Source: Candidatus Nitrososphaera gargensis Ga9.2
Lineage (GTDB): Archaea > Thermoproteota > Nitrososphaeria > Nitrososphaerales > Nitrososphaeraceae
Assembly (NCBI RefSeq): GCF_000303155.1
Contig: NC_018719.1
Location: 2,232,001 to 2,296,000, forward strand
DNA: 64,000 bases
Reading direction: 5' to 3'
Shown here: positions 10,277-50,573 of the stretch, piece after piece
How positions within the stretch are numbered: position 1 is the stretch's first letter
Layout of the letters: each line of letters starts with the position of its first letter
Translations under genes and position numbers: made by a program
Notes under the pieces: generated by a model
Seen by the model: only the letters and a program-made list of their open reading frames with translations
What the model was told of the DNA's origin: nothing
The model's database searches: none

Positions 10277-10305
10277 TAAGTTCATAAAACACCGTTATAC
10301 TGTAT

Positions 10306-11073: not shown

Positions 11074-11158
11074 CTAGCCCTGCCATTTTTCATTCCTATT
11101 GTAATCTTGCATTACACCCAATCACTTATGTCACTACCAATTCCCAAAATGGGCATAT

Positions 11159-31815: not shown

Positions 31816-31838
31816 AGCGCGGGGAGTGGGATTCGAAC
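31816..31838. repeat. attL: 23-bp copy of the tRNA-Ser 3' end
   Basis: These 23 bp (AGCGCGGGGAGTGGGATTCG plus AAC) are identical to 50551-50573, which is the 3' end of the tRNA-Ser gene (T-arm and acceptor strand, minus orientation). Similarity ends abruptly on both sides, and the rest of a tRNA is absent here. This is the far attachment site left by integration into the tRNA gene. Confidence 0.88.
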
Positions 31839-31987
31839 ATTCATTCGGTAGTTCGGTGTTCACAAGCGTAATACAGTGTGCTTAGCTTTAAAACTTTTGG
31901 TTATGCTGCCGTTACGACATCCAAGAATAAAAACCATGTTATTGGACAGCTTTCCTGAATGATTCTTGAAGTAGCATCGCGTACGCA

Positions 31988-32641
31988 CTATTCCTTTATC
32001 TTTTTGAGTTCCCTGTAAAGCAAGGTTCCCAGGTCAGAAACTTCGGTATAGCTAAGTCGTTGTTCATATTCGTATCTTGGACATAGACAAGTGTAACATT
32101 CGCCGCGAGGCTGGCCAAATTCGTGCATTATCTCTTGGTGTCCGCACTTGCAAATGTCCGTTGGCTCATTGGCAATACTTGGATGTTCTCTTTCGGGATA
32201 CGGTTCTTTCAGACTCATCTTTGCTCTTATCTCTTTGACCCTTTTTTGACGAACCACATTGGTGTCAAATCCTTTGAAGGAAGAATAGATAAACAAAGCT
32301 GCATAATAAAAGCCGAATAGAAATTTAGCATCTGCAAGCCTGGCATAGTGTGTTGCAGCATCGATTGTCAACTGAACAGACTGGAGGCGGTCGTCCAAGG
32401 CCGCTTGCTCTACTATGTAATCTATGGTTTCGCTAGCTTTTTTATTACTATCTTTCAGCAAGAGTTTGCTATAATCTTTGAAATTGAAGCGCAAAAGCGA
32501 GTCTCCCGACTTTAGTCGCTTCTTGTGAGCTGAACAAACGTAGGCAACAGTTGTAAAGTCATCCAACTCTTTGAATATGCCAACTTTCCTTGCTATCGTC
32601 CCTTTATTCTTGCAGCCGTCTATGATGCATGCTTTTGTCAT
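31988..32641 (-). CDS. Two-zinc-motif protein of unknown function
   Basis: A 217-residue protein. The N-terminal part has ACIIDGCKNKG and VCSAHKKR, giving a CxxxxC/CxxH metal site. The middle is helical (TIDYIVEQAALDDRLQSVQL, FGFYYAALFIYSSFKG). The C-terminal part carries a second cluster: CKCGHQEIMHEFGQPRGECY followed by TCLCPRYE, similar to short treble-clef fingers. It is the first gene inside the left end of the element. Probably DNA- or RNA-binding; function unknown. Confidence 0.6.
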   Translation of the reverse strand: MTKACIIDGCKNKGTIARKVGIFKELDDFTTVAYVCSAHKKRLKSGDSLLRFNFKDYSKLLLKDSNKKASETIDYIVEQAALDDRLQSVQLTIDAATHYARLADAKFLFGFYYAALFIYSSFKGFDTNVVRQKRVKEIRAKMSLKEPYPEREHPSIANEPTDICKCGHQEIMHEFGQPRGECYTCLCPRYEYEQRLSYTEVSDLGTLLYRELKKIKE

Positions 32642-32983
32642 AAGCCGTAGGACCGAATGCTAAGCAAAGAAGGCTGATAAGCAAGCTCTTTTAGCAAACT
32701 CGATGATGCTGAATGATACCTTTCAGGATATTCCCGAGCTTTTCGCAAATAACCTGAGGCCAAAGCCATTACGTCGAGTTCGTTCATGCAAAAGGCTTTC
32801 AAATAACAATCATAACAAAAATAACATACTACTTGAAGTATCTTCTTCCTCTTGGAAACGGGCTTTCGTCTTTGGCATCGAATATTCTCCGGCTGTTTGA
32901 ATTTGCTAATCTTCTATCATGTTTTCATAATTACAGGTGATGACGGACGCTACATGAAGTTTGATTATAGTGCCACAAATGAA
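32642..32983. other. Intergenic region within the mobile element
   Basis: About 340 bp. A 65-codon plus-strand frame (32703-32900) is Asn- and Ser-rich and shows no family pattern or ribosome site, so I do not call it. The promoter of the minus-strand zinc-motif gene should lie near 32650-32690. Nothing else is supported. Confidence 0.35.
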
Positions 32984-33718
32984 TTAGAATTTGCGCTTCT
33001 TACTTCTTGGCTTTAATCGCCTTACTTTTGTTAGGAACTGAGCACGAGCCATTTCAATGTACCATCCAAATTTTTGACCTAGGGGAAGGTTTTCCCAACT
33101 TGTTATGATTCTTCCTGCATAGGCCACCGCTTCATTCTTGCCATGAAAGGAAAACATTCTCCTCTTTACTCTAATGCTTTCGGTCTCCTTATAGCGTCCA
33201 TAGAATCTTTTAGGATTATAAAAAATTGTGAGCATGACTGGAACATAGTCCCTCAAAAACAGCTTCAGTTGTGCATAGTCAGATGGCTGCTCAAATAAAG
33301 GGGTGTTGGTAATCAATACAGAATCGTCTTTCATAAACTGGGAGCACTTGCTGATAACCTCTGCCTTCTTAAGATGATTTAGGTAAAAGATCATATTACA
33401 ACATATCACTATATCCGCGGGATAGAGGGTAGAGTCAACATACATAACGTCTTGGTTAAGGAAAAGATCTACATTCTGCATTGCTTCTTCCCTTACTGTT
33501 TGAGATAAATCAATTCCAATAGTACGGTTCTTTATTCCACTATTATCTAACATATTTTTCAGTTGCTTTGTAGCCACCGCAGTGGAGCACCCTATGTCCA
33601 CAATGACAATATCTCTTTTGTTTGAGGCTCGCAGATATTCAAGAACATGATCAACTACTCCTATCTCCTCATATCTCTCTGGATAGGTTAAGGTGGGCTT
33701 CCAATTCTTATCGAACAA
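32984..33718 (-). CDS. Class I SAM-dependent methyltransferase
   Basis: A 244-residue methyltransferase. Motif I is IVIVDIGCSTAVATKQL, motif II region is NRTIGIDLSQTVREEA, and motif IV is ADIVICCNMIFYLNHL, which lacks the NPPY of DNA amino-methyltransferases, so it more likely acts on a small molecule, lipid or protein. The C-terminal tail is very basic (VRRLKPRSKKRKF). It lies alone on the minus strand near the left end of the element and is A/T-rich. The substrate is unknown. Confidence 0.72.
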   Translation of the reverse strand: MFDKNWKPTLTYPERYEEIGVVDHVLEYLRASNKRDIVIVDIGCSTAVATKQLKNMLDNSGIKNRTIGIDLSQTVREEAMQNVDLFLNQDVMYVDSTLYPADIVICCNMIFYLNHLKKAEVISKCSQFMKDDSVLITNTPLFEQPSDYAQLKLFLRDYVPVMLTIFYNPKRFYGRYKETESIRVKRRMFSFHGKNEAVAYAGRIITSWENLPLGQKFGWYIEMARAQFLTKVRRLKPRSKKRKF

Positions 33719-33799
33719 TCGACTTGGTTACTCACAAATTACACGAACGAACTATAAAAGATAGTCCCAGCTATCGGTGGGATGCCATAGTTTTTCCTT

Positions 33800-34003
33800 C
33801 TATTCTTTTTTGTTAGCTAGGTAGCTTACCGTTAACATGACAGCTGCCAAACCGGATGCAAGCCCAAGAATGGTCACCAGCATGTTCCATTGGATCAAGG
33901 CCATGAATACTCCTTGTACGTTTGGGTTAAGCACTGCTAGAGTTCCCACCAGCAATCCCACCACTATGATAGCAAGCGCTGCGAGCTGATGCTTTAGGCC
34001 CAT
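33800..34003 (-). CDS. Small two-helix membrane protein
   Basis: A 67-residue protein with two hydrophobic helices (LAALAIIVVGLLVGTLAVLN and MLVTILGLASGLAAVMLTVS) and a basic end ANKKE. Small membrane proteins of this shape are common in mobile elements, where some act as toxins or holin-like effectors; there is no direct evidence here. It is divergent from the AbiEi-like gene with 167 bp between them. Confidence 0.6.
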   Translation of the reverse strand: MGLKHQLAALAIIVVGLLVGTLAVLNPNVQGVFMALIQWNMLVTILGLASGLAAVMLTVSYLANKKE

Positions 34004-34066
34004 GTTCTATTATAACAATGAGGCAAGTTTTACTACAGCGCGAAATGTTCCGCCGAAAATGTCGAA

Positions 34067-34132
34067 GCCTTATAAAGGCCTAATTCTATTAGGTCCTAGA
34101 GAGTGCCCATAAAAACATATACTATGAGTATA
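34067..34132. promoter_or_regulatory. Two palindromes upstream of the AbiEi-like gene
   Basis: GCCTT-ATA-AAGGC (34067-34079) and TATACT-ATG-AGTATA (34118-34132) are perfect inverted repeats in the region shared by the divergent genes. The second lies about 40 bp before the antitoxin start. Antitoxins of the AbiEi class bind inverted repeats in their own promoter, so these are candidate autoregulation sites. Confidence 0.45.
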
Positions 34133-34170
34133 GCTTTTTAAGGTAGGTCTCCCATATACTGGCTGTAGAA

Positions 34171-35058
34171 ATGGCTCTGTTAGAAATCCTAAGTTCTGGA
34201 GCAAGGAAGCTCATTCTAGAGGAACTAGCTAAAGATGATACTAGGCCTGTATCAGCATATGCTTTGGCTAAAGTATCTGGATATACGCAGAGGACCATTT
34301 CCGAAGAATGCAAACGGTTGGCTCGAGCAGATATTCTAAAGCCTGTAAAAATAGGCGAAGGACAGAATGGGTATGTTTACAATGATAATCCCATTGCACA
34401 AGGACTAAGATCATTAATACTCGATAATCTTCAGCGAATGGAAAGCAATAGTGTTGTAGAAAAGATAGCAAAAAACCTTAGGATGACGGATTATTACATA
34501 TCACTGCCACTAGGACTTAAGGTATCTTATGATGTATTTTATGTTCCCAATTACCTGCTGGTAATTGTAGATAAGAACAATACCAAAGCCGTTGACTTTC
34601 TGGAAAACATCGCTAAGGAAACTAAAGAAGGAAAGGTAATTGTCAAGAAAGAGTCGTTGTGGGGTAGAGAATACAAGTTTGATGCAAACACAGGTGCTTC
34701 AATTGCTTCTATAGAACAAGCAATGGCTGACGGGCTTGAATACTATCAAACAGTTAAAGACACAGAAGTAATCAGAGTATTGCTAGCCAGAACCTCTTCT
34801 ATAGACATAAAGAAACTGAATAAATTGTCAGATATTAGAGGCGCTTCAAGAGCTTATAGAGCTCTAAGTCTAAAAGATAGGTTCTTGAAAGATTATTCAT
34901 CTAAGGAGTTTCAAAAACGTGCTATTCGGAATGATATAGATGGATTCTTTTCAAGTGATTTAAAGGCCCAGATCCTACCTACACTTTTTCCTAATGAGAC
35001 ATACCGGCCAGAACAAATTCAGATGTTAAATAATGCCTTACCAAACTTTCAAAAGTAA
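34171..35058 (+). CDS. AbiEi-like antitoxin / winged-helix regulator
   Basis: A 295-residue protein. The N-terminal winged helix reads LLEILSSGARKLILEELAKD, then VSAYALAKVSGYTQRTISEE and LARADILKPVKIGEGQNGYV. The middle part (about 95-190) fits the all-beta/alpha antitoxin domain of the AbiEi type only loosely, for example YYISLPLGLKVSYDVFYVPN and LLVIVDKNNTKAVDFLENIA. The main support is context: the gene directly precedes, by six bases, a nucleotidyltransferase of the AbiEii type. It should neutralise or repress that partner. It could also be a plain regulator. Confidence 0.6.
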   Translation: MALLEILSSGARKLILEELAKDDTRPVSAYALAKVSGYTQRTISEECKRLARADILKPVKIGEGQNGYVYNDNPIAQGLRSLILDNLQRMESNSVVEKIAKNLRMTDYYISLPLGLKVSYDVFYVPNYLLVIVDKNNTKAVDFLENIAKETKEGKVIVKKESLWGREYKFDANTGASIASIEQAMADGLEYYQTVKDTEVIRVLLARTSSIDIKKLNKLSDIRGASRAYRALSLKDRFLKDYSSKEFQKRAIRNDIDGFFSSDLKAQILPTLFPNETYRPEQIQMLNNALPNFQK

Positions 35059-35064
35059 CCCAAG

Positions 35065-36129
35065 TTGAGCAAGATTCAGATCTTTCGATTCCTCTTTCAA
35101 GCAGATCCGAAAATCATGAATATTCAAAGCTACAAGCAGATAGCAGAGAAAAAAGGTTGGAGGGCACATCTTACAGGGCCACTTGTTTCAATGGTTGAGA
35201 GGGATATACTTACATTTGATACCTTTTCGATTCTTGCAACCATGGCTAACGATGAACTTTCATTTGGTGGGGGAACACTTCTGAATTGGATACAGCTGTG
35301 TGATTCTCCTCGTTTTTCATTTGATGTAGATACACAATTACAATTTCCTGCCAGAACAAAACAAGAAGTAATGACCAAGATCATTGAACCTATTAACGAC
35401 AGTCTCCGGAAAAGTGGCAAGGTTACGCCCATAGAGATCAATGGAAAAAAGTTTGAGGTAGGCCTCATTTACTTTGATAGGGAAAAGGATCACTTTCCTA
35501 ACATGCTCTCTCTGAAACGGAGCGTACATGCACTTACCATAGGAAGGGATGCCCACGAATATCTTAGAAAGGAAATGAACGGATTGACCGATAAAGAAGT
35601 AATGAAGCTCAAGAGCATGTATGGAGGCAAATTTGGCAAGATAGAAGACGTAAGGATCGAGATAGGTTTTTCAGAAAGCGGCGATCCCAAATTCCCATCT
35701 AAAGCAACCGTTGTAGAACCGCTAGTAAATCCGGAGGCAGGACTGACTCCTGTTGAAGCCAAAGTCACAGTAATAGAACACACTATCGCAAGCAAGATTT
35801 TCAGATTAGGGAAACGATATACCGATGCTGAATTGGAATTTGCTATACCGGAATTTATCAAAGCTATCAGCGATCTGAGATATTGGGAGAGTGCTAACCT
35901 TGATGAAATACTAGAATATATCAGACAAATCTCTGCTAGCGAAAACTATAGCGTTATGGAAATACTTGATAGTTCTGATAACATGTTGGATTGGCTCAAA
36001 TCAGAAAGAAAAGCGAAGGATCAGTTTGAAAGAGGGGCTCAAACATCGATGCTTGCAACTAAGATTGGCTACTTAGAGCTCATCAATAATTCATCTGAAC
36101 TGGTTCAAAAGATCAGGCAAAAAGTGTAA
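35065..36129 (+). CDS. AbiEii-like nucleotidyltransferase toxin
   Basis: A 354-residue protein starting at TTG (an ATG at 35116 is the alternative). The nucleotidyltransferase motif is ELSFGGGTLLNWIQLCDSPR followed by FSFDVD, matching the GG(S/T)-x9-10-DxD/E pattern with RFSxDiD of AbiEii/DUF1814 proteins. Later blocks are VEAKVTVIEHTIASKIFRLG and KRYTDAELEFAI, the helical region that follows in the family. AbiEii toxins transfer nucleotides to tRNA or other targets and stop growth on infection. The gene pairs with the upstream AbiEi-like gene. Its base composition is A/T-rich, as in the surrounding cargo. Confidence 0.72.
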   Translation: MSKIQIFRFLFQADPKIMNIQSYKQIAEKKGWRAHLTGPLVSMVERDILTFDTFSILATMANDELSFGGGTLLNWIQLCDSPRFSFDVDTQLQFPARTKQEVMTKIIEPINDSLRKSGKVTPIEINGKKFEVGLIYFDREKDHFPNMLSLKRSVHALTIGRDAHEYLRKEMNGLTDKEVMKLKSMYGGKFGKIEDVRIEIGFSESGDPKFPSKATVVEPLVNPEAGLTPVEAKVTVIEHTIASKIFRLGKRYTDAELEFAIPEFIKAISDLRYWESANLDEILEYIRQISASENYSVMEILDSSDNMLDWLKSERKAKDQFERGAQTSMLATKIGYLELINNSSELVQKIRQKV

Positions 36130-36336
36130 GACTGACTACACAAACCATCCGCTCTTCCAAAGTTGACCAGGCACTCCAGACATTGACGAGTTACTTTTTG
36201 CAAAGCATACAGGATCATCCTGCTACTGCAAAGTCTAGGGGCAAATCTCGCTACTAGAGTTTCCGGCTAGAATATGACAATAACTAGCGACTAATAACGA
36301 GTGAATATTAATAGGACTTTCCACAGATCTTGATCC

Positions 36337-37674
36337 TTGACTTCTTCGTATCGCAAGAGTATGTATGGTTCGACTTCTATCATTGCCAAGTTTGTTTCCG
36401 ATTACATCATTGGCAGACGTTCAGAGTATGGCGGAGCTATCCTGAAAGTTTGTTATATCAATGTACAGGGAATACCAAGACCACTTATGGCAAAATTAGA
36501 ACTATCTTACAAGGATGATGCTGCCCACGAAAGAAATGAATCTACTAATGACTATGGGGATTTTGTCATGTGTTCTTACAAGCTCAATATGGATTCTGTA
36601 CTATCAATGCTCAGTTCAATCGCTTCTGAGAATAGTTTTGACCCTCCTGATAAGCGGCCAAAGCTGTCGTTTACTCAAAATGCAGATTGTTACCTTCTAA
36701 ATAGCAAATCACAGTATGCATGGGGATATCACCAGTGGCCGTGTCTGTATGCTACTTTCAAGATCCCCGAATTTCAAATTAACGCAAGCTATCAGGTACT
36801 GGCAAAAAGAGGGCTTCCACTCTATCCTGATATGTATGTGGGAATCACTGAATTTCTTGACCTTTCCTCTAGCATTGGTCATCATTCAAACATGTACCAG
36901 ATGATCGTAGTGGTGCCAGACTTTAAGGCTAGAATTGACAGGCTTGTAATCTCTGGCAAGAAGGTATCTTTAACAGTGGAATCAAAATCTGCACCGCTTG
37001 AAAATCTGGTGGCAAAGATCTATCTAGCTAAGGGACGGCAATCTTACCAGTCTGAAGATCTGTCACTTTCATCGTCAGTTGTTAGCACAGAAGTTGACTT
37101 TGAACCTGACATAGTTACTGCTTGTATATTGGATAATAGGGATGACGTACTGGATCTTAGGGAGCATCACCTCGATTGGACGCAGTATAATGAGGATGTA
37201 ATTGTTGAAATGCCTTCTAACCAAATCATTGAATTAATACAACGAGGCGAGAATGAGAAGATCGAGTTCAAGCAAACAGCGGGTGAGGATTTCCTAGAGC
37301 CAGTAGTCTCATTTGCAAATGCTGAAGGCGGAATGATTCTTTTAGGTGTCGATAATTACGGCAAGATTGTTGGATATAATGAAGATGTGGACAAACTTAG
37401 AGACAAGCTGGCAAGCAGAATTCGAAGCAACATACAGCCTAGCAATATCAAATTCAGTGTTCAACGAGTTGAATTAGAGGGTCAAACGCTAGATGATAAG
37501 AAACAGGTAGTCATAGCGATTACAATCTACAGCGGTCAGAGCAAGCCCTACTATCTAAGAGACAAAGGAATATTGATAAGGCATGGGGCATCGGATAGAG
37601 CAATTACACCGGCTGAACTTGACGAGATCTACGCAAGAAGAGGCAACAACAATAACAGAAGCCCATGGCTGTAG
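36337..37674 (+). CDS. Protein with C-terminal Schlafen-type AlbA_2 domain
   Basis: A 445-residue protein starting at TTG, with ATG at 36361 as alternative; a TATA-like GAATATTAATAG lies at 36303-36314. The first 290 residues are unknown and beta-rich (KVCYINVQGIPRPLMAKLEL, YAWGYHQWPCLYATFKIPEF, LVISGKKVSLTVESKSAPLE). The C-terminal 150 residues are an AlbA_2 (divergent AAA-4/Schlafen core) domain: IQRGENEKIEFKQTA, FLEPVVSFANAEGGMILLGV, YYLRDKGILIRHGASDRAIT. The EFKQT and NAEGGxILLGV blocks are the hallmark. AlbA_2 domains are linked to nucleic-acid binding or RNA cleavage in defence. It is followed by a HEPN-like gene, so the pair may act together. Confidence 0.72.
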   Translation: MTSSYRKSMYGSTSIIAKFVSDYIIGRRSEYGGAILKVCYINVQGIPRPLMAKLELSYKDDAAHERNESTNDYGDFVMCSYKLNMDSVLSMLSSIASENSFDPPDKRPKLSFTQNADCYLLNSKSQYAWGYHQWPCLYATFKIPEFQINASYQVLAKRGLPLYPDMYVGITEFLDLSSSIGHHSNMYQMIVVVPDFKARIDRLVISGKKVSLTVESKSAPLENLVAKIYLAKGRQSYQSEDLSLSSSVVSTEVDFEPDIVTACILDNRDDVLDLREHHLDWTQYNEDVIVEMPSNQIIELIQRGENEKIEFKQTAGEDFLEPVVSFANAEGGMILLGVDNYGKIVGYNEDVDKLRDKLASRIRSNIQPSNIKFSVQRVELEGQTLDDKKQVVIAITIYSGQSKPYYLRDKGILIRHGASDRAITPAELDEIYARRGNNNNRSPWL

Positions 37675-37756
37675 TCAAATCACCTCATGAACAGGTATAG
37701 CTTTGGTCTATTTCTGCTAATTGCATTTTTTAGTTGCCACCTTCCGTCTTAATATC

Positions 37757-38881
37757 ATGGAACGGTGGGAGCAATTCTGGCTAAACTCAGAAAAGAACAT
37801 GGAAGTTGCCCATTTGCTCAGAAATCAGCTCGACAAGAACTATGTTGGATTATCCCTTTATCATGCACAACAGGCATTGGAGATGGCTGTCAAAGCTTGC
37901 ATGTTCAAGTTTGAACTTGAGAGGTACTTGCGATTAAAAGAATCAAGTGACAGCAAATCAGAAATTGTCTTTGTCAGAGATAGGTCTCGAGTGGGAGATC
38001 CAGTACACACCCACTTTCCCGTCGCGGAATTAATCTACACATCATTTGGATTCATAGAATCGCAGGCGAAAAAAGTTGCAAAAACGGGCAATTTAGATTT
38101 TGACCAATCACTAAATGATATTGTTGATGCCGCCAAGACAGTGAGGGAGTTTGTAGATTATGTTGATCCAAAGGGATCAAAGGTCGATTCTAAAGAGGCT
38201 CTTCACAGAAAGAAAGAGCTGTGGAAGCTTTCATTGCAAATGGACATCGAGGATCAAAAGATCAAGGACTTCATATCAAAACTGAGAGCTGCAGGCCAAC
38301 CGGGAGGGACCTCTACCAATTTCCAATTGTCAAGCGTACAATTTGTCAAGAATCTGGTTGCGAAGTTAACACTTGTATTAGAGAAAACAGGTAACGAACG
38401 ACATTTGATCTACGCAAAAGGGAGAGCGCAGGATATCTTGAAAAAAGCCGGCCTACCGCCTGATCTTGTTTTTCTTTTCATGCACGACAGAAATTCTGGA
38501 GCATATGATGCGGCAATTGAAGACTTGGTACGAGAACAGGGAATGTGGCCTATTCTAATCAGGCTTTTTTCTCCAGAAGGCGTGATCAAACAAGTTCAGA
38601 AGCTGAGGTATGACACCAAGGTCGCCAATATAAAGGGCGCAAGGATGCTGTTTCCCTTCTTTCGAATTAATTTGATATGGATGGGGTATATCGCTTCAAT
38701 AGCTTATGTTATGTTGTTCATGTTTCCTCACGAAGAATTTGGAAGATACCTTCAACCAATCGATGCAAGAACATCTGAAGACATCTATCTTGAGCGCCGG
38801 GAAAAGGCGAATATCCTTATCGATGAATGTGATAAAGCGTGTCAGACAATAAAGTTAATCTTGAAAACAATGAAGACATGA
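37757..38881 (+). CDS. HEPN-like domain protein with hydrophobic C-terminal segment
   Basis: A 374-residue protein from the ATG at 37757 (an in-frame ATG at 37721 adds 12 residues). The N-terminal part has WLNSEKNMEVAHLLRNQLDK and YVGLSLYHAQQALEMAVKAC, the usual start of HEPN domains, and RVGDPVHTHFPVAELI, which fits the R-x5-H catalytic motif (Arg78, His84 from this start). The middle is helical and unknown. Near the C-terminus NLIWMGYIASIAYVMLFMFP is hydrophobic enough to insert in the membrane. HEPN proteins are often RNases in defence systems. It lies directly before hsdM and after the AlbA_2 gene. Confidence 0.65.
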   Translation: MERWEQFWLNSEKNMEVAHLLRNQLDKNYVGLSLYHAQQALEMAVKACMFKFELERYLRLKESSDSKSEIVFVRDRSRVGDPVHTHFPVAELIYTSFGFIESQAKKVAKTGNLDFDQSLNDIVDAAKTVREFVDYVDPKGSKVDSKEALHRKKELWKLSLQMDIEDQKIKDFISKLRAAGQPGGTSTNFQLSSVQFVKNLVAKLTLVLEKTGNERHLIYAKGRAQDILKKAGLPPDLVFLFMHDRNSGAYDAAIEDLVREQGMWPILIRLFSPEGVIKQVQKLRYDTKVANIKGARMLFPFFRINLIWMGYIASIAYVMLFMFPHEEFGRYLQPIDARTSEDIYLERREKANILIDECDKACQTIKLILKTMKT

Positions 38882-38981
38882 ACTAACTGAATCGTGGTAA
38901 CCTTATATCCACCTATAATCAGTAAGGTCGAATTTTTATAATTGTGCGATAATCGTCTCTATAGTCCTCACGCTGATTGAA

Positions 38982-40520
38982 ATGAAGACAACAAATGGAA
39001 ATAGCGGCGACTTAGGCTTTGAGCAGAAACTCTGGCTTGCTGCTGACAAGCTCAGGAGCAACATGGATGCTGCCGAATACAAGCATGTCGTCCTTGGATT
39101 GATATTTCTAAAGTATATCTCAGACGCCTTTAACGAGGTCTATGAAGAGGTAAAGAAGGACAAGACGTCTGACCCTGAAGACATTGACGAATACTTGGCT
39201 AGGCGAGCGTTCTGGGTTCCAAAGGAAGCTAGATGGGATTACCTGCAAAAGAATGCCAAGAAACCAGAAATCGGCAAGCTGATTGATGAAGCGATGGACC
39301 TTATCGAAAGGGACAACAGGTCACTCAAAGGCGTCCTTCTAAAGAATTACTCAAGGCCTGGGCTGAACAAGCAGAGGCTGGGCGAGCTTATAGACCTCAT
39401 TGGCACGATAGGCCTTGGCGATAAAGAGAATAGAAGCAAGGATGTCCTTGGCAGAGTCTATGAATACTTTCTTGGCCAATTCGCAGACGCAGAAGGCAAG
39501 AAGGGCGGCCAGTTCTATACACCAAGAAGCATAGTCAAACTTTTGGTGGAGATGCTGGAGCCATTCAAGGGAAGGATTTTCGACCCATGCTGCGGCTCTG
39601 GAGGAATGTTTGTGCAAAGCGAGAAGTTCATTGAAGCACATGGCGGCAGGATAGGCGACATTTCTATCTACGGTCAGGAAAGTAACCAGACTACATGGCG
39701 GCTGTGCAAGATGAACCTGGCAATAAGGGGAATTGATGCAACCAAAATAGAGTGGGGCGATTCTTTCCGCGACGACCAGTTCAAGGATCTACGAGCAGAC
39801 TTTATCTTGGCAAACCCTCCTTTCAATGACAGCGACTGGGGAGGAGAGCACCTGCAGGAAGATGCAAGGTGGAAGTTTGGCGTGCCTCCGAAAAATAATG
39901 CGAACTTTGCATGGGTGCAGCATTTCATACATCACCTTTCTCCGGCAGGTGTTGCTGGCTTTGTTCTGGCCAACGGTTCGATGTCTTCAAATACCTCTGG
40001 CGAGGGAGAAATCCGCAAGAACATCATAGAAGCTGACCTAGTTGACTGCATGGTTGCTCTGCCGTCGCAATTGTTCTACAACACAATGATTCCTGCTTGT
40101 CTTTGGTTTCTGTCGCGCAATAAAGGGAACCACAAATTCAGAGCCAGAAATGGACAGATACTTTTCATTGACGCCCGCATGATGGGCGTGATGATCGACA
40201 GGAGGCACAGGGAGCTGACCGACGAGGATATCAAGAAGATTTCAGACACTTATCACGCATGGAGGGGTGAGCTGAAGGACAAAAAGTATGAAGACATTCC
40301 CGGCTTTTGCAAGTCCGCCACTCTTGAAGAAGTAAGAAAGCAACAGTGGATTTTGACTCCTGGCAGGTATGTGGGCGCGGAAGAAGAGGAGGAAGACGAT
40401 GAAGAGTTTGAAGAAAAGATGAACCGGCTGACGTCTGAGCTGGCAAAGCAGATGGAAGAAGGCAGGAGGCTTGACGAGGAGATAAAGAAGAATCTGGCAA
40501 GCATAGGGTATAGAATATGA
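38982..40520 (+). CDS. hsdM: Type I restriction-modification methyltransferase subunit HsdM
   Basis: A 512-residue adenine methyltransferase subunit of normal length. The N-terminal HsdM domain has [20 protein letters not shown]. The catalytic domain has [17 protein letters not shown], motif [16 protein letters not shown] and the amino-methyltransferase motif [13 protein letters not shown]. The C-terminal tail is acidic ([14 protein letters not shown]) and coiled coil, for contact with HsdS. It transfers a methyl group from SAM to adenine at the site chosen by HsdS. Its stop overlaps the HsdS start by four bases. Confidence 0.95.
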
Positions 40521-41827
40521 TGAAGGAAAAGACAAAAACGAAATTCAAAGAAACAGAGATAGGAAAGATTCCCGAAGAATGGGAAGTTGCAAGTGTAAGT
40601 GATCTAGCAGACATATACATCGGGGGTACTCCAAAAACGGAAGTTGGAGAGTATTGGAATGGAGAAATAAAATGGGCATCTGCAAAGGATGTTTCAAATT
40701 GTAGATCAAGATATATTTGCAATACTGAAAGAACGATTACAAATACAGGCATCGAAAATAGTAATGCAAAGATATTTCCTAAAGATACTTTGGTGATAAC
40801 ATCAAGAGGAACAGTTGGAAAACTAGCCTTATTGGGTGAACCAATGTCATTCAATCAAACTTGTTATGGTCTAGTCGCAAAGAAACAAACTATTCCTTTA
40901 TTTTTGTATTACAAACTCAAGGATTCCGTTGATAAAATACAATCAGCGTCATATGGTACCATTTTTGATACAATTACAACAAAAACATTCAATGAATTGA
41001 AATTGGGGATTCCGCCGCTTCATGAGCAGCACTCTATTGTTAGAATTCTATCCGATCTTGACTCCAAAATCGAGCTGAACCAGCAGATGAACAAAACCCT
41101 TGAAGAAATGGGCAGAGCGATCTTCAAGCACTGGTTCATCGACTTTGAATTTCCAAACGAGGAAGGCAAGCCGTATAAATCGTCTGGAGGGGAAATGATC
41201 AACTCCGATATAGGAACCATACCTAAAGGATGGAGGATATCATCAATAGGTCATGAAATTGAAGTTGGCGGAGGAAGCACTCCAAGTACGTCTGAATCCT
41301 CATACTGGGATGGAGGGGACATAAATTGGGCAACACCCAAGGATATGTCCTCGCTGACATCACCAATTTTAGTAGATACGCAAAGGAAGATAACCACTAA
41401 AGGGTTAGACGCTATTGGCTCACGAAAATATCCACGCGGAACCTTGCTCATGTCATCTCGTGCACCCATAGGCTATCTCGCAATTTCAGATATCGCCACT
41501 GCCGTGAATCAAGGAATCATTGCAATGGTTTGTACCCAGTCACTTTCAAGTTATTTCATGCTCAATTGGTGCAAATTCAATATGGAGAAGATTGAGAATA
41601 GAGCGAATGGAACTACTTTTAGAGAGATAAGTAAATCCAATTTTCGTACAATGGGAATCCTTGTTCCTCCAAAATCCCTTCTAAGTCGTTTCGATGGATA
41701 TGCGAGAATGATTTATTCACACATGTCCACGAACATTCGTCATTCTTATACACTCCAGAATATACGGGATTCGCTACTCCCAAAACTAATGTCTGGAAAA
41801 ATCCGAGTCCCTGTGGAGGCTCAATGA
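40517..41827 (+). CDS. hsdS: Type I restriction-modification specificity subunit HsdS
   Basis: A 436-residue specificity subunit with two target recognition domains. The first begins [20 protein letters not shown] and [20 protein letters not shown]; the second [40 protein letters not shown]. Each is followed by a conserved helix ([40 protein letters not shown]). The two halves read a split DNA target. The gene is clearly more A/T-rich than hsdM and hsdR, as is usual for a specificity gene exchanged by recombination. It starts in an ATGA overlap with hsdM. Confidence 0.93.
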
Positions 41828-41828
41828 A

Positions 41829-44800
41829 ATGCCAAAAGCGATAAGCGAAGCAGACGTTGAGGAAAACGTCTTGGCCATTTTAGAAAGTATGGGCTACAAA
41901 ATTATCAGAGGCGACAATGAAGATTGTCTTCCCGGTGGCTCGTCAGCACTAAGGGCTGATTACAAGGATGTTGTCCTTGTCGATAGGCTCACTGACTCCC
42001 TAAGGAAAATCAACCCATCGGCTCCAATTGATGCATTAGACCAAGCAATCAAGCAAGTCCTAAGAAGCGAAAGCCAAAAGCTGATAGCAAACAATGAGAG
42101 TTTTCACAAAATGCTAGTCGATGGAATAGATATTCCAGTGCAGACACTAGAGGGAGAAACCTACAAAAAGATATGGCTCTTTGATTTTGAGGATCCAGAG
42201 AACAACGAGTTTTTGGCAGTCAACCAGTTCACAGTCGTCGAAAACAATATCGAGCGTAGACCGGATGTCATACTCTTTGTCAACGGAATACCGTTGCTGG
42301 TTATTGAACTAAAGAACTTGGCTGACGAAAATGCCACTATATGGACAGCCTACGATCAACTTCAGACATACAAGGAACAACTTCCTTCGCTATTCAAGTA
42401 TAATGAAATTCTAGTCATAAGCGACGGTATTGAAGCAAGGGCTGGAACTTTAACATCTGAACGCGAAAGATTCGCTCAATGGAAGACCATTGACGGCGGA
42501 GCGCCAAGAAAAGGATTGACTGAAATCGAAGTCCTTATCAGAGGCATGTGCAACAAGCAAAGGTTCCTAGACATAGTTAGAAACTTTATCGTCTTTGAAA
42601 AAGACAAGAGCGTTAGCAAAAAGCTGGCGGCATACCATCAGTACTGGGCTGTAAACAAGGCCTTAGAATCTACGATCAAGGCTAGGAAAGGGAATAAAAA
42701 AGCAGGCATTGTCTGGCATACCCAAGGCTCTGGAAAGTCGCTAACCATGGTCTTTTATACTGGCAAGCTGGTAAGGGAGCTTGACAATCCTACGGTTGTT
42801 GTTCTAACAGACAGAAATGACCTAGATGATCAGCTTTTTGGCACTTTTAGCAGATGCCAGGACATCATACGACAGGAGCCGCAGCAGGCCAACTCAAGAA
42901 AAGAGTTGCAAGACTTGCTCAAGGTTTCATCGGGCGGCATTGTCTTTACCACCATACAGAAATTCTTGCCAGAGGAAGACAACAGAGAGAAGTATCCCGT
43001 ATTGTCAGAAAGAGATAACATTGTTGTTATTGCCGACGAAGCACACAGAAGCCAGTATGGCTTTGCTGCAAAAATACTGAACAAGGATGACAAGACTCTG
43101 ATAACTTATGGCTATGCAAAATACCTCAGGGACGCCTTGCCCAATGCTTCGTTCATAGGCTTTACAGGAACACCTATAGAAAAGGCAGACAGATCGACTC
43201 CGGCTGTCTTTGGCAAGTATGTTGACACTTATGATATAGAACAGGCTGTAAATGATGGAGCCACTGTAAGAATATACTATGAAAGCAGACTTGCCAAACT
43301 AGAGCTCAAGCCTGAGGAAAGGCCGAAGATAGACAGCGAGTTTGAAGAAGTGACAGAAGGCGAAGAAGTCGAAGGCAAGGAAAAACTGAAGAGCAAATGG
43401 GCAAGGGTCGAAAAGGTAGCAGGCGCACCAATGAGGATAAAGAGGATTGCAAAGGACATTGTCGACCACTTTGAAAAGAGGACATCTGTGCTTGAAGGAA
43501 AAGGCATGATAGTCTGCATGTCTAGAAGAATTTGTGTTGAACTTTACAACGAGATAGTAGAGCTTCGGCCCGAATGGAAGAATAGCGATGATGAAAAGGG
43601 AGCAATCAAAGTGGTCATGACTGGCTCTGCTTCAGACCCAAAGGAATGGCAAGAGCACATTAGAAACAAAATCCGTCGAAAGAGGATTGGAGATAACTTC
43701 AAGGACCCAAAACATGAGCTGAGGCTAATCATTGTAAGGGACATGTTTCTGACCGGCTACGACGCGCCGTCGCTTCATACAATGTATCTTGACAAACCAA
43801 TGAAAGGCCATACATTGATGCAGGCCATAGCAAGGGTTAACCGCGTCTATCCGGGAAAAGAGGGTGGACTAATTGTTGATTACATGGGGGTTGGAGCAGA
43901 ATTAAAGAAAGCATTGATGGACTATACTGCCAGTGGTGGCAAGGGCAAGCCGGCCTTTGACCAAGAAAAGGCGGTAATGATGATGGTTGAAAAATACGAA
44001 GTTGTAAAAGACATGTTCCACGGCTTTAACTACAGAAAGTTCTTTGAGCTCAAACCAAGTGAAAGGATTTCCTTTATTCCTCAGGCAATGGAGCATATCC
44101 TCAAAGAGCCTGGCAAAAAGGAAAGATACGCCAGAGAAGTTACAGCGCTTCTAAAGGCATTCTCACTGGCAGTTCCACATGACAGGGCAATGAAGATAAA
44201 AGAAGAAGTAGGGTTGTTCCAGGCTATAAAATCCGCAATTGCAAAGACAACTGAAACCGGAAAGGAAAGCCAGGAGGAAAAATTTGACAGCGCAATAAAG
44301 CAGATTCTTTCAAAGGCTGTGATATCGGATAGAATCATAGATATTTTTGAAGCAGCAGGCATACAAAAGCCAGAGCTATCTATCCTGTCAGATGGTTTTC
44401 TTGCTGAAGTAAAAGATATGCCACAAAAGAACTTGGCTTTTGAAGCTCTCAAAAAGCTGCTTAATGACGAAATCAGGTTCATGTCCAAGAGAAACCTTGT
44501 GCAGGCAAAATCGTTCATGGAAATGCTGGACAAGACCATAAAGAAATACACCAACAGAAACGTTGAGGCAGCGCAGGTAATTGAAGAGTTGATCGAGTTG
44601 GCAAAGAAAGTCAGAGCAGAAAAGAACAGAGCCAAGGAGCAGAACATGAGCGAAGACGAGCTGGCATTCTATGATGCGCTCGAAGTAAACGATAGTGCAG
44701 TAAAGATTCTTGGGGATGAAACATTGAGAAAGATTGCTGTAGAGTTGACGCAGATGATACGCAACAGCGTAACAATTGACTGGACGCAGAGGGAGAGCGT

Positions 44801-44933
44801 GCAGGCTGCTATACGTCTGAACGTCAAAAAGATTTTGAGGAAATACGGCTATCCGCCGGACAAGGAAAAGAAGGCTACAGAAACAGTGTTGCGTCAGGCT
44901 GAATTAGTCGCCAAAAACTGGGTATCAGGCTGA
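41829..44933 (+). CDS. hsdR: Type I restriction endonuclease subunit HsdR
   Basis: A 1034-residue motor and nuclease subunit. The PD-(D/E)xK nuclease is in [20 protein letters not shown] with Asp146, Glu160 and Lys162. The SF2 translocase has Walker A HTQGSGKS (297-304), [19 protein letters not shown] (403-406), [14 protein letters not shown], and later motifs [20 protein letters not shown] and [16 protein letters not shown]. The C-terminal helical part contacts HsdM. It cuts unmethylated DNA after ATP-driven translocation. It starts one base after the HsdS stop, completing an hsdMSR operon. All active-site residues are present. Confidence 0.95.
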
Positions 44934-44989
44934 TCGGTGCATTGAGCCAAATTATATAAAAAACTGTTCACTGTCACAGCCTTAATTCT

Positions 44990-45271
44990 TCAGTCGCGTT
45001 CCTTTCGAATTCTTTTACAGAATAGCTTTGAATGTTCATGCATTAGCTCGTCTGGGATAATTGATCTAACTATGTAGACGCTATCGCAAATAGTTTGTTT
45101 ATAGAACTTGCGAATCTCTCCAGCTCTTTTCAGCGACGAGGAGTCGCCTTTTCTCTCAAAATACCTCCTCGCATAATCTAGAAGTTCTAGTCGCATCATG
45201 AGTTCAATGAATACGCGACTTGGGCGACCTAGGTCTTCAGGATCGTCGAATCTAATATTTGCCATCTTCAT
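44990..45271 (-). CDS. Small helical protein of unknown function
   Basis: A 93-residue protein with a charged helical middle (VFIELMMRLELLDYARRYFE) and a basic end (LFCKRIRKERD). No motif is recognised. Its start overlaps the stop of the HTH gene upstream (TAATG), so it is the last gene of the minus-strand module that runs from the integrase side. Role unknown; perhaps a partner of the HTH protein. Confidence 0.5.
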   Translation of the reverse strand: MKMANIRFDDPEDLGRPSRVFIELMMRLELLDYARRYFERKGDSSSLKRAGEIRKFYKQTICDSVYIVRSIIPDELMHEHSKLFCKRIRKERD

Positions 45272-46005
45272 TATTTGATTATCCTTTCCTTTCTCAGAAC
45301 AGTCATGAACGAGTTCCAGCCCTCCGATGACACTTTAAGCAATTCCTGTAAATTCAGAACGCGGTAATCGAGCTTGTTTTCTTCGCAATACTTGTTGATG
45401 TGTTCTGCCACTTCGTTACGAATCTTGTTAGCGTTGTCGTAAATTCGTTCATCAGCCTTTAGCAGCCTGCTTTCTATGTCTGTAAGCTGGCGCTCTATCA
45501 TCAATTTTGTCTGGACATCACTTTCTTTTGAAAGATACTCTTCAAGCCTGGCACGCTGCATTTCAAGCCTCACATAGAATCTGTCATACGCCTCTGCAGT
45601 GCTGTACCCAGGCCGGGCCAGCTCTCGATAGATTGCTTTTAGGTCAGCATAGATTGTGTTCTTGTCAACCTTCATTGCTTCGGCTATCCTTATGCCGGGC
45701 ATCCCCTTCTCAAAATGAAGCCTAGCTACCTCCTTTCGACGCTTTTCCCTTTCTGCCCTTGTATAGGGCGAAAACTTACTAGGTTTTACTATGTTGGTCC
45801 CTTGGATCTTATCGGCGGCTTTTCTTTGCTCTTCGATAAAATCGCTTGTGATATCAAAGGCAGTACCTTTAGACTCCATTAGACATTGAAAGCAGTCAAC
45901 ATAAGAATTCCAATGGCCATGCTTCTCACAGATCGTCAAGTTGCAGGCTGGACCTCCCTTGGATATTGCTCTAAAGGTGTTGCCCCACTGTCTTGGGGGA
46001 TACAT
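45271..46005 (-). CDS. HTH protein with zinc motif, element module
   Basis: A 244-residue protein. The N-terminal part has CNLTICEKHGHWNSYVDCFQ and a final Cys, a possible zinc site. A helix-turn-helix follows: REKRRKEVARLHFEKGMPGI with RIAEAMKVDKNTIYADLKAI, like the homeodomain-type HTH of resolvases and terminase small subunits. The C-terminal half is coiled coil (RLEMQRARLEEYLSKESDVQ). Its start lies 70 bp inside the end of the ATPase gene. It likely binds element DNA, for replication, partition or transcription. Confidence 0.6.
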   Translation of the reverse strand: MYPPRQWGNTFRAISKGGPACNLTICEKHGHWNSYVDCFQCLMESKGTAFDITSDFIEEQRKAADKIQGTNIVKPSKFSPYTRAEREKRRKEVARLHFEKGMPGIRIAEAMKVDKNTIYADLKAIYRELARPGYSTAEAYDRFYVRLEMQRARLEEYLSKESDVQTKLMIERQLTDIESRLLKADERIYDNANKIRNEVAEHINKYCEENKLDYRVLNLQELLKVSSEGWNSFMTVLRKERIIK

Positions 46006-47519
46006 TTTCTATCAGAAGATATATTCCCTGACACAGTGGGGTAGACTAGCATTTTGCGCTTATCTTCTGGGTCAGGCGACTGCTCTATTAGACCTGCCCC
46101 TTCCAGTTGCATAATAACAGATTCTTCAAGCTTTGCTGCAAGCGTCTTGTGGAATACGGTATAGTACTTTGACCTTATTTCCTTCCGACTTAGCCCTACC
46201 TGTGGATTTAGCAGAGGTTGAATCACTTCCCTGTAAATCTTGAAGATATAGGGCGATAGGCCAAGCTCGTTTGATTGCTCTATTTCTTTGTAGAGTTCAA
46301 AGCCAGCGTCAATGTCTGCCTGATTTGCAATTATGGCCACCGGCTTGTCTGCATGGCCGTTGAGCACCTTCTCCCTTTTGAAGCAATTAAGGAGCGCATG
46401 GGCCTTGATGAAGCTGAATATCCTAGGAAAGTCGCGCTGGTGCCGCGGAAGAAGGTAAGCATGTTCCTTCATGAACCTCTCATACACATCCTTTCCATCG
46501 TTTGGAACCAGAACCTCCCTTATACCCCACTGTCTGATTGCCTTTATCCGGTCAACAAGCCAGCTGCGGCGCGGATCATGTTGTATGCGCTTGCGATACT
46601 CCTCTGGGTTGCTCTTTTTAAGCGATACCAGCTCTAGCGATTCTCTGAGCTTTTCTTGATCTGTTGATGGGCTCAACAGTATCATGCGGGTCTTTTCCTG
46701 CTCGTCTGGATCTGTTCTGGTAGTGCAAAAGAATACAGACGGAAAGCCTCTGATAATGACATTTTTTGTCCGGAGGCCTTGCCTTTGGTTCTTGTCAGTT
46801 ATTTTGTAGTAAAGCTCTTTCATGTCCTTGCTTAGAAGTGGCCGCAGCTTTTCCAGCAGTTGAAAGTGCGGCTGGTCGAGGAAGATCAGGTTCTTGTGCT
46901 CTAGGTCCCTGAATAGCACCTTTTTCTCATTATCCCATTTGCCGTCATGATAGAACGCTGTAGGGCTTGCGGAGGCCAGAATCTCCACCTCTTCTTTGGG
47001 AAAATAGCTTGCTACTTCTATTGGAATGTATGATTTGCCTGCCGAGGATTCGGACTGAAAGCCAAGATTGAGCTGGTCTTCGTTTGATTGCGCAAGCAGC
47101 ATGCCGCAGAATGTAATCAATTTGGCCGCTTCATCCTTCTTTATTGATGTCGACAAGATTGCTGAAACTTCTTGGAATGTAACCTCCCTCGTAAGATCAT
47201 CTGTCAGAACTATTGGCTGTTCTTTTGATTCTTGAGCTGTTGTTGTCTTCTCTACCTTACCCTTTGGCTTAAGTCTTTGCAGATGGTACTCCTTGACCAT
47301 TGCAATTGACCATTTGTTGACATTTTCAGTAGATACATAGTCAATGTTGTACTTTTGGCAATATTCATAGACCGCATTTTCAATTGATTCTTTGCTAACA
47401 CGCTGCGGTAGTAGGATTGGATACTTGCTTTCTCCATTGATCAATAGCCTGTCGTCATTATAGGATAGGTATTGGAGATAGGCTTCAAAGTTGGCTTGTG
47501 CATCACTAGATTGAGTCAT
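45936..47519 (-). CDS. AAA-type ATPase with C-terminal winged helix, element replication candidate
   Basis: A 527-residue protein. The N-terminal 150 residues are helical and unknown. The ATPase core has Walker A SESSAGKS (156-163), Walker B NLIFLDQ (210-216, with Gln after the Asp instead of Glu), a sensor-like VFFCTTRTD and a candidate arginine finger in EQEKTRMILLSP. The C-terminus has a winged helix (LSRKEIRSKYYTVFHKTLAA, QLEGAGLIEQSPDPEDKRKM). This layout resembles MCM/SF3-like helicases or Cdc6-like initiators of archaeal elements. A replication or partition role is an inference. It overlaps the start of the upstream zinc-ribbon stop by four bases. Confidence 0.6.
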   Translation of the reverse strand: MTQSSDAQANFEAYLQYLSYNDDRLLINGESKYPILLPQRVSKESIENAVYEYCQKYNIDYVSTENVNKWSIAMVKEYHLQRLKPKGKVEKTTTAQESKEQPIVLTDDLTREVTFQEVSAILSTSIKKDEAAKLITFCGMLLAQSNEDQLNLGFQSESSAGKSYIPIEVASYFPKEEVEILASASPTAFYHDGKWDNEKKVLFRDLEHKNLIFLDQPHFQLLEKLRPLLSKDMKELYYKITDKNQRQGLRTKNVIIRGFPSVFFCTTRTDPDEQEKTRMILLSPSTDQEKLRESLELVSLKKSNPEEYRKRIQHDPRRSWLVDRIKAIRQWGIREVLVPNDGKDVYERFMKEHAYLLPRHQRDFPRIFSFIKAHALLNCFKREKVLNGHADKPVAIIANQADIDAGFELYKEIEQSNELGLSPYIFKIYREVIQPLLNPQVGLSRKEIRSKYYTVFHKTLAAKLEESVIMQLEGAGLIEQSPDPEDKRKMLVYPTVSGNISSDRKCIPQDSGATPLEQYPREVQPAT

Positions 47520-47683
47520 TTGCCTTCCATTCCCACTGAAAGTGAACTATGACAGCAGCACTTGCAAATGAATCGTCTTGCAAGTACATCTGAAACGTAA
47601 AAGCCCGTACATTCAGAGCAGGATGATGTCAGGCATTTGTGAATTATCTCTGTCTGGAATTGGCTCCTTTCCATACTACTCAT
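47516..47683 (-). CDS. Small zinc-ribbon protein, element module
   Basis: A 55-residue protein from the ATG at 47683, whose ATGAGTAG overlaps the stop of the small antitoxin-like gene. It has HKCLTSSCSECTGFYVSD and RRFICKCCCH, enough Cys for one zinc ribbon. Its stop overlaps the ATPase start (ATGA). The string of overlaps from 47813 to 45936 shows one operon. Function unknown; small zinc proteins are frequent in archaeal elements. Confidence 0.5.
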   Translation of the reverse strand: MSSMERSQFQTEIIHKCLTSSCSECTGFYVSDVLARRFICKCCCHSSLSVGMEGK

Positions 47684-47813
47684 CAGCGTCTCGCCCCTCA
47701 GCATTCGAGATGAGTTTAGAAATTACAGAATCAAACGAGTCTTCCAATGTTCCAAGCCTAACCAGCTTGCGGTAGGTCTCCTCTGTGACCTTGATTGATT
47801 TTACGGCGGTCAT
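47676..47813 (-). CDS. Small antitoxin-like (RHH/VapB-type) protein
   Basis: A 45-codon frame too short for routine gene finding. It reads TAVKSIKVTEETYRKLVRLG and TLEDSFDSVISKLISNAEGR. The pattern (IKVTEETYRKL...SFDSVISKLI) is that of short archaeal antitoxin-like ribbon-helix-helix proteins. It starts the minus-strand operon of the element; its end overlaps the zinc-ribbon start. No toxin gene stands beside it, so it may be a transcriptional regulator of the operon. Confidence 0.55.
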   Translation of the reverse strand: MTAVKSIKVTEETYRKLVRLGTLEDSFDSVISKLISNAEGRDADE

Positions 47814-47961
47814 GGTAGACAGAGGGTAGAGACTAGAATATGAGAACTAATTCTTCCTTTACGGAGGGGATATTACGCCAATCACGGCTGCACATGTTCT
47901 GCAATTGTCGTAATTGCGGCTAGCATCGCCAAAAACCTAATCTAGAATAACTTTTTTCAAA

Positions 47962-48954
47962 CTATGCCAAGGTGTCTGGAAAGTTGGCTATTCCCTTGCG
48001 CTCCTTAAATGCCAGCAATCTTTTCTCAATTTCCGCTCGCTTGGATTCGAACCTTTCTTTAGCGTTCCGCCCCAAATAACCTTGTATATTTTGCTCAAAT
48101 AACTGTCTTGCTTCCTTGGGAACCTTCATCGCAGCTTCCGCTTCACACTTTCGCTTACCGACCGTATCTATCCACTCCTGAATGAAGCGCTTGATTTTGC
48201 CATTTTTGTTGGGTTTGCTCATATCCTTGCCTGACCCTGATAGGAGGTTATCAATCCAAGTTAAATTGTGTCTGTCAATAAAGTCCTTGTTAAGGCAAAA
48301 CCGCTTTATCTGATTCCTATGCATGCTAATATTTATTCGATTACCGTTTATGTCAAGAAGACCATCTAATTGATGTATATTTTCAATAAGCGTGTCAGAG
48401 ATATGCTTGCCATAGGGGTCGAAATCGCCAGCATAAAGAATTATTGGAGTTAATCCCCTAGATTCTGCCCACATGCATCGCTTGATCAAATCATATCGCT
48501 GGTTTATGTCGGACCAGCCTTTGCCGTTAGCGACCGGGATATGATACTCTTTGCAAATAGGCATGAACAAGTTCTTAAGGTCAAGCTTCTCTACTAGGAG
48601 CTGGAGATAATATTTCTCTCCTTCCCACCAATCAGGACTATACCAATTGTGTGCGTTATTCCAGACATTTCTTACCATCTCAACAAAATAATCCTCAACA
48701 GTTACCTGTTCAGGCTCTTCTACCCCTTCAAATATTCGCTCATTATATTCGGCAGTGAAATCTACGGGGAGTTTACCATTTTTTCTACACTCAGTTATGA
48801 ATTTCTCAGCATCATCAAAATCTCCCTTTGTTATCACACCCTCATTTTCAAGTATGTAACACCACGACCTAGCACCTACCCGATTCTCTAATGTTGGGCT
48901 TATCCTTATGACTGTGTCCAGAATCATCCTTTTCCATTCCTTGCTACGTTTCAT
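47962..48954 (-). CDS. Toprim-domain protein (TopoVI-A-like), element module
   Basis: A 330-residue protein. The N-terminal half is unknown (LDTVIRISPTLENRVGARSW, then WWEGEKYYLQLLVEKLD). The Toprim core is LLVEKLDLKNLFMPICKEYH with Glu122, and LTPIILYAGDFDPYGKHISD with Asp177 and Asp179, closest in pattern to the TopoVI A subunit/Spo11 Toprim. The winged-helix domain with the catalytic Tyr of Spo11 is not evident. The C-terminus is coiled coil. It probably binds metal and acts as a nuclease or topoisomerase-like enzyme for the element. Confidence 0.62.
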   Translation of the reverse strand: MKRSKEWKRMILDTVIRISPTLENRVGARSWCYILENEGVITKGDFDDAEKFITECRKNGKLPVDFTAEYNERIFEGVEEPEQVTVEDYFVEMVRNVWNNAHNWYSPDWWEGEKYYLQLLVEKLDLKNLFMPICKEYHIPVANGKGWSDINQRYDLIKRCMWAESRGLTPIILYAGDFDPYGKHISDTLIENIHQLDGLLDINGNRINISMHRNQIKRFCLNKDFIDRHNLTWIDNLLSGSGKDMSKPNKNGKIKRFIQEWIDTVGKRKCEAEAAMKVPKEARQLFEQNIQGYLGRNAKERFESKRAEIEKRLLAFKERKGIANFPDTLA

Positions 48955-49063
48955 CCAACTGTACTTCCCATTCAGGCAGGTTTTGCCTTTGTTCCTTCAT
49001 TTCTAGAAGGAGTATATAATGAATGAAGCACCAGAAGGGGAGGGGGTATAGAAAGTGGACAGA

Positions 49064-50428: not shown

Positions 50429-50550
50429 AGTCGGTTCCTCCTTTTGTCGTTGTCTGTCGTTTGCTTGGCTCCGGGTGGCCTGCATTCTTGTTCAGAAGGT
50501 GAATACCCACAGGCGCTAAAGAGAACTATTTTGGATGACTCCAAAAGTAG

Positions 50551-50573
50551 AGCGCGGGGAGTGGGATTCGAAC
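50551..50573. repeat. attR: 23-bp repeat within tRNA-Ser 3' end
   Basis: Identical to 31816-31838. It covers the acceptor 3' strand, discriminator and part of the T-arm of the tRNA-Ser gene. The integration left the tRNA gene whole at this end. Confidence 0.88.

Follow-up and report, generated by a model that had tools for sequence, protein, structure and literature searches.

Two adjacent genes on the chromosome of Candidatus Nitrososphaera gargensis Ga9.2, a single contig of 2,833,868 bp, raise the question of whether they constitute an undescribed defence system of two parts or came to lie side by side in another way. We analysed them within a stretch of 64,000 nucleotides (NC_018719.1, positions 2,232,001 to 2,296,000), referred to as the window. 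As an earlier reading made from the sequence alone had described, both genes (gene 1 and gene 2) are neighbouring forward-strand open reading frames, preceded by a toxin-antitoxin-like pair and followed by hsdM (Table 1). Both ORFs are intact in the ORF listing of the window, that of gene 2 opening at 37721 (386 aa), although its homologues favour the ATG at 37757 as the start. From the end of gene 1 to this ATG there are 83 bases, and because of this short gap the two genes could be cotranscribed here; gene 2 in turn precedes hsdM by 100 bases. The neighbouring genes were called with a simple longest-ORF script. Those upstream, encoding a winged helix-turn-helix (wHTH) protein and an AbiEii-like nucleotidyltransferase, are a possible type IV toxin-antitoxin pair, the PF08843 match of the latter being barely over the cut-off and the matches of the former under it.

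Table 1. Features of the integrated element, its two genes of interest, and neighbouring cargo (window coordinates)
Feature	Position	Strand	Basis
Integrated mobile element carrying genes 1 and 2, 18.8 kb	31816..50573		Direct repeats, tRNA-Ser, integrase, G+C, sister element
Left attachment repeat AGCGCGGGGAGTGGGATTCGAAC, 23 bp	31816..31838		Two exact copies in the window, none expected by chance
wHTH gene and AbiEii-like nucleotidyltransferase gene, neighbouring cargo	34171..36129	+	Second gene PF08843, E = 5.1e-5; first gene weak HTH matches only
Gene 1, 445 aa: N-terminal region without assignment, Ig-like sandwich, C-terminal AlbA_2	36337..37674	+	ORF, Pfam, alignment, model
Gene 1, predicted Ig/FnIII-like beta-sandwich	36895..37170	+	AlphaFold block, pLDDT mostly 79-85, eight strands
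Gene 1, AlbA_2 domain (Schlafen)	37249..37605	+	E305, E310, K312 correspond to catalytic E209, E214, K216 of SLFN11
Gene 2, PF05168-type HEPN protein with long insertion, 374 aa from ATG	37757..38881	+	Pfam, alignment
Gene 2, RVGDPVH (R-x5-H of the earlier reading), not conserved	37988..38008	+	Alignment, shuffles
Gene 2, hydrophobic segment	38672..38728	+	Among close relatives, over membrane threshold in this protein only
Gene 2, conserved motif FPHEEFGRYLQPID, family form PHxxxGRYPxxI[DE]	38723..38764	+	H, R, Y, I invariant in alignment
Type I restriction-modification genes hsdM, hsdS, hsdR, neighbouring cargo	38982..44933	+	Pfam and PADLOC
Element backbone: HTH-like gene, 527-aa protein, 330-aa protein	45271..48954	-	Sister-element (L123) counterparts, E = 8.2e-51, 0, 1.1e-15
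Tyrosine integrase of the element	49064..50485	-	Phage_integrase PF00589, E = 4.1e-7; same gene at same tRNA in G256
Right attachment repeat, inside 3' end of tRNA-Ser	50551..50573		Exact copy of AGCGCGGGGAGTGGGATTCGAAC
tRNA-Ser (GCT), integration target	50552..50636	-	ARAGORN

Both genes were found to lie within an integrated mobile element bounded by exact direct repeats. When the tRNA was used as the query against the whole genome, just two matches were obtained, at the two repeat sites, and the G+C content is 0.431 within the element compared with 0.491 and 0.478 outside it. A sister element in another genome of the genus (G256; L123:542-14029) occupies the same tRNA-Ser and has the same integrase, the HTH-like gene, the 527-aa protein, and a distant counterpart of the 330-aa gene, with exact copies of the 23-bp repeat at 542 and 14007, 13.5 kb apart. 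The AlbA_2, HEPN, AbiEii-like, and hsd genes, however, are all absent from it. Since the sister element keeps the backbone and not this cargo, genes 1 and 2 belong to the variable part of the element. Two further genomes (G620 and G120; L124 and L125) have the tRNA with a single repeat copy, nearly or fully matching, in the stretch read. The integrase, tRNA target, and direct repeats are those of cryptic integrated elements, and viral, conjugation, and casposon hallmark genes were judged absent by reading of the ORFs. Cryptic integrated elements of thaumarchaea likewise have a tyrosine integrase, a target at the 3' end of a tRNA gene, and direct repeats, commonly carry type I restriction-modification (R-M) genes, and have a median size of 17 kb, close to the 18.8 kb found here (PMC6563490). 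The genes for the 527-aa and 330-aa proteins (45936-48954), retained in the sister element, may form a replication or maintenance module; the 527-aa protein gave weak winged-helix Pfam matches only. The other cargo of the sister element includes two ORFs resembling a large signalling-type ORF found elsewhere in the window.

Gene 1 starts at a TTG codon, as backed by homology: a 50%-identical homologue begins MVSSYRDY, compared with (M)TSSYRKS. The Schlafen-type AlbA_2 domain that had been proposed for it was confirmed with Pfam (PF04326, residues 305-423, E = 2.8e-21), and the same family matched nine of nine aligned homologues. No Pfam family matched the first ~300 residues, and no NCBIfam model matched either gene 1 or gene 2. 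With PADLOC 2.0.0, gene 1 yielded only a weak match to a pAgo model via its AlbA_2 domain (E = 0.0025), and gene 2 matched no system component. Eight further full-length relatives in the class share both the N-terminal region and the AlbA_2 domain, at identities from 50% down to ~21%, and one more homologue was found in a Bathyarchaeota MAG. In a profile search of 300 genomes, the matches extending deep into the N-terminal region were full-length proteins, and the rest spanned AlbA_2 alone. Across the nine aligned full-length proteins, an E-x4-E-x-K motif (E305, E310, and K312 counted from the TTG; E297, E302, and K304 in 437-aa numbering) is invariant. These residues align with those of SLFN11, SLFN14, and rat Slfn chains, the gene 1 profile matching SLFN structures at an E value of about 1e-7, and their equivalents E209, E214, and K216 are needed for tRNA cleavage by SLFN11 (PMC9482658). 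By this analogy, we lean towards gene 1 encoding a metal-dependent RNase; such activity is not assured because the annotation of other AlbA_2 proteins is that of transcription regulators or RecG-like helicases. Gene 1 thus resembles the Schlafen RNases (human SLFN11, SLFN13, and SLFN14) in its AlbA_2 domain with the invariant motif, but differs from SLFN proteins in having one C-terminal copy of the domain, no second lobe, no helicase part, and an N-terminal region of ~300 residues that matches no Pfam family. The gene 1 profile also matches PDB entry 9ylu (CbCash), which contains AlbA_2, at an E value of 3.6e-8.

Structure models were built from alignments of three or four sequences each. The gene 1 model (four sequences) is of low confidence, with a mean pLDDT of 52 overall. 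In it, the N-terminal part is alpha/beta and the middle is poorly predicted, followed by an eight-stranded beta-sandwich at about residues 187-278, a block with pLDDT mostly 79-85. A fold search with the sandwich placed FnIII/Ig domains nearest, but with no PDB match below an E value of 0.001, and a viral fold search with gene 1 gave low TM-scores only. The beta-rich domain of 290 residues claimed for this region was therefore retained in part: one beta-sandwich is predicted, within ~300 residues matching no Pfam family, but the N-terminal part is alpha/beta and the middle lacks a clear prediction.

For gene 2, the HEPN-like beginning recognised earlier was borne out by Pfam, since PF05168 matches residues 24-67 at an E value of 2.3e-5, over the curated cut-off. 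The same family matches the ten gene 2 relatives scanned, the close homologues reaching E values down to 4.7e-11. As an active site, the R-x5-H sequence of the earlier reading was, in contrast, rejected: RVGDPVH sits in an insertion unique to this protein, is absent from all aligned homologues, and is of a kind expected by chance, R-x4-6-H being present in 76.8% of shuffled gene 2 proteins. What the family conserves is QQ-x-LE near the start, W-K-x-S-L in mid-protein, and H-x4-RY near the end. In the catalytic-motif test, R-x5-[D/E/G] was found at GRYPxxI, with an invariant R and an invariant H close by. Short ordinary HEPN proteins, such as those in L096, hold comparable motifs (QQALEKYLK, HDLEEL, and ERYP) inside about 130 residues, and for this reason gene 2 reads like a PF05168 HEPN protein opened by a long insertion of ~150-220 residues. 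This split is likely but not proven, because in two homologues, though not in the window protein, the Pfam match grew to cover most of the profile once the insertion was deleted. The Pfam profile covers only the N-terminal part of gene 2, and the gene 2 model is poor (mean pLDDT 44). Outside the class, a phylum-wide search with the gene 2 profile found almost only short ordinary HEPN proteins, along with a few weak N-terminal matches to longer ones. In one genome (G104), the gene 2 homologue (L041:9368-10366) is interrupted by an in-frame TGA.

Among described HEPN groups, gene 2 is closest in character to HEPN-T (PF05168), in which D replaces the catalytic H in several cases and H stands elsewhere, and which clusters with R-M operons in several cases (Anantharaman et al. 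2013; PMC3710099). Gene 2 shares with it the Pfam match and, like short HEPN proteins, conserves RY(P) close to its end. However, about 150-220 additional residues split its domain, no nucleotidyltransferase partner adjoins it, and the acidic position following RYPxxI varies (D, E, or G), so that it fits the HEPN-T description loosely. We regard a catalytic role for gene 2 as a tentative possibility.

The hydrophobic segment near the end of gene 2, on which the idea of a membrane-linked HEPN partner had rested, does exceed the usual membrane threshold in the window protein, with a Kyte-Doolittle value of 1.78. The equivalent place in seven close homologues, however, has values of 0.21-1.40, and a membrane helix is therefore not a trait of the family; membrane anchoring as a family feature was rejected accordingly. 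A distant relative (L084) reaches 1.76 in this segment.

We then asked how often the two genes occur together. The sample, drawn from a larger group, consisted of 300 genomes of the class and was searched with profiles for full-length proteins. Full-length gene 1 was found in nine genomes and full-length gene 2 in eight, with both present only in the source genome. Neighbourhoods were read at nine further loci for gene 1 and at 14 further loci for gene 2, and in none of them did the other family adjoin; the 50%-identical homologue of gene 1 occurs without gene 2. At the level of Pfam families, AlbA_2 was over the cut-off in 3 of 13 other gene 2 genomes, and HEPN, not of gene 2's family, in 2 of 8 other gene 1 genomes. 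Six scans of viral contigs recovered no relative of either full protein, the one match being a generic AlbA_2 where a phage contig ends; a plasmid search matched only the AlbA_2 part of gene 1 and left gene 2 unmatched. For one scan of genome contigs, the two proteins were joined end to end as the query, a sequence made for searching only. The sole loose echo of the arrangement was seen in genome G020 (L086:8531-12965), where a non-homologous AlbA_2 protein is encoded on the same strand 2.4 kb from a distant gene 2 relative. A transposase and a small gene separate the two, and the AlbA_2 protein differs from gene 1 in its N-terminal part and has E-x4-D-x-K where gene 1 has E-x4-E-x-K. This is a possible second case of a loose AlbA_2/HEPN association. 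An undescribed two-gene defence pair, as suggested by the sequence-only reading, is thus supported by neither the neighbourhoods nor the co-occurrence data, and the two genes most likely came to adjoin by chance as cargo was assorted.

Each family was instead found singly in other mobile elements. In one casposon (G058; L034), inverted repeats at 5438-5478 and 19050-19090 enclose a gene 1 homologue together with cas1 and PolB. A gene 2 homologue (G245; L043) likewise occurs with cas1 and PolB, between inverted repeats at 162-211 and 11081-11130, and another (G135; L079) lies beside cas1 between perfect 44-nt inverted repeats at 7806-7849 and 19100-19143. The last of these we take to be, very probably, the HEPN gene of casposon NitEve-C1, given the HEPN gene beside cas1 within a casposon and the 44-nt inverted repeats. 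NitEve-C1 of N. evergladensis carries an HEPN nuclease (PMC6563490); unlike in the window element, the HEPN gene there is accompanied by no AlbA_2, R-M, or toxin-antitoxin genes. In yet another genome (G131), an integrase related to that of the window (E = 9e-37) lies within 4 kb of the gene 2 homologue. Because homologues of gene 1 or gene 2 sit singly in casposons or near an integrase, each family moves separately among several types of element.

These observations are best explained if genes 1 and 2 are separate cargo of the 18.8-kb element integrated at tRNA-Ser and not a conserved two-gene system, a reading to which we assign a probability of roughly 0.7. We read both as independently shuffled and probably defensive RNase-like cargo. 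The immune flavour previously noted for the locus holds in this respect, with Schlafen-type and HEPN domains beside R-M genes within a mobile element. Gene 1 might then combine sensor and effector in one protein: its N-terminal part, with the Ig-like sandwich, would sense an invader or stress, and the AlbA_2 domain would cut RNA, by analogy with the action of SLFN11 on tRNA. As an HEPN protein, gene 2 would cleave or bind RNA, its long helical insertion serving in regulation or in the binding of a partner. Alongside the toxin-antitoxin-like pair and the type I R-M genes, both would contribute to an assorted defence load against competitors, protecting the host and thereby the element. Bacterial Schlafens are reported to be anti-phage tRNA nucleases in work cited by PMC12839542, where HEPN and Schlafen RNases are also listed as backup effectors beside BREX-like systems. 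In a more specific version, which is doubtful, gene 1 would be an archaeal Schlafen protein that gives immunity on its own, with a novel sensor region made up of the N-terminal domain and the Ig-like sandwich, and gene 2 would be an HEPN effector carrying an insertion; casposons and tRNA-integrated elements of ammonia-oxidising archaea would exchange the two as weapons against one another.

That the AlbA_2 and HEPN proteins are instead two parts of one abortive-infection system, with the HEPN protein membrane-linked, would accord with their adjacency on one strand 83 bases apart, with the ties of both domain types to immune RNA cleavage, with the known fusion of MAE_18760-family HEPN to a Schlafen domain (PMC3710099), and with the different AlbA_2 gene 2.4 kb from a distant HEPN relative in G020; it is nevertheless very unlikely, as no other sampled genome holds both families, a 50%-identical gene 1 homologue stands without gene 2, casposons hold each family singly, and the membrane segment is not conserved. 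A partner for gene 2 might also be sought further upstream, gene 2 being the toxin of an HEPN/nucleotidyltransferase pair with the AbiEii-like gene. PF05168 HEPN proteins are often paired with nucleotidyltransferases, as in the canonical pairs in L096, and the AbiEii-like gene is close by. However, that gene already has a wHTH partner directly upstream of it, gene 1 separates it from gene 2, and relatives of this nucleotidyltransferase are absent from all the gene 2 homologue loci; finding no support in these loci, we rejected the pairing as extremely improbable.

Two other explanations concern one gene each, and both seem unlikely to us. Gene 2 could serve as a backup RNase of the downstream type I R-M system, firing when restriction fails, with gene 1 unrelated to it. 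The start of hsdM 100 bases after gene 2 is in keeping with this idea, as are a distant gene 2 homologue lying directly after hsdM-hsdS on the same strand (G009), others near an Eco57I-type enzyme (G001) and an HmaC/DUF499 locus (G038), and the clustering of PF05168 HEPN genes with R-M operons (PMC3710099). Yet hsd genes were found in none of seven close homologue loci, with ~9 kb read on each side, where the neighbours are cas1/PolB or integrases. Gene 1, for its part, could have a regulatory role in the element, or help to maintain it by binding nucleic acid, and not be an RNase, as RecG-like and transcription-regulator proteins (PHROG 12156 'DNA helicase', 2kyy) also contain AlbA_2 and gene 1 homologues are regularly found in mobile elements, which need such factors. 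This is opposed by the invariance of the E/E/K residues that SLFN11 requires for cleavage and by the absence from gene 1 of the helicase or HTH parts of RecG-like relatives; in addition, the sister element has no gene 1, which indicates that the gene is not needed for element maintenance.

Little is known of immunity in ammonia-oxidising archaea. As separate cargo, genes 1 and 2 represent two recurrent cargo families of thaumarchaeal mobile elements that have no convincing PADLOC match, and both are candidates for testing whether archaeal mobile elements bear Schlafen- and HEPN-type RNases against rivals. The host genome contains a second AlbA_2 gene near 974145, encoding a 424-aa protein with an N-terminal AlbA_2 domain; 1.2 kb before it, the start of a gene reads like a TIR domain (FISYNSADKQIA), the two genes lying at L044:7302-7913 and 9098-10372 and the profile having confirmed the AlbA_2 part only. 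At another locus (L036:4142-10558), a gene 1 homologue lies between a toxin-antitoxin-like pair and a gene for an Mrr-type restriction endonuclease (PF04471, E = 3.2e-29).
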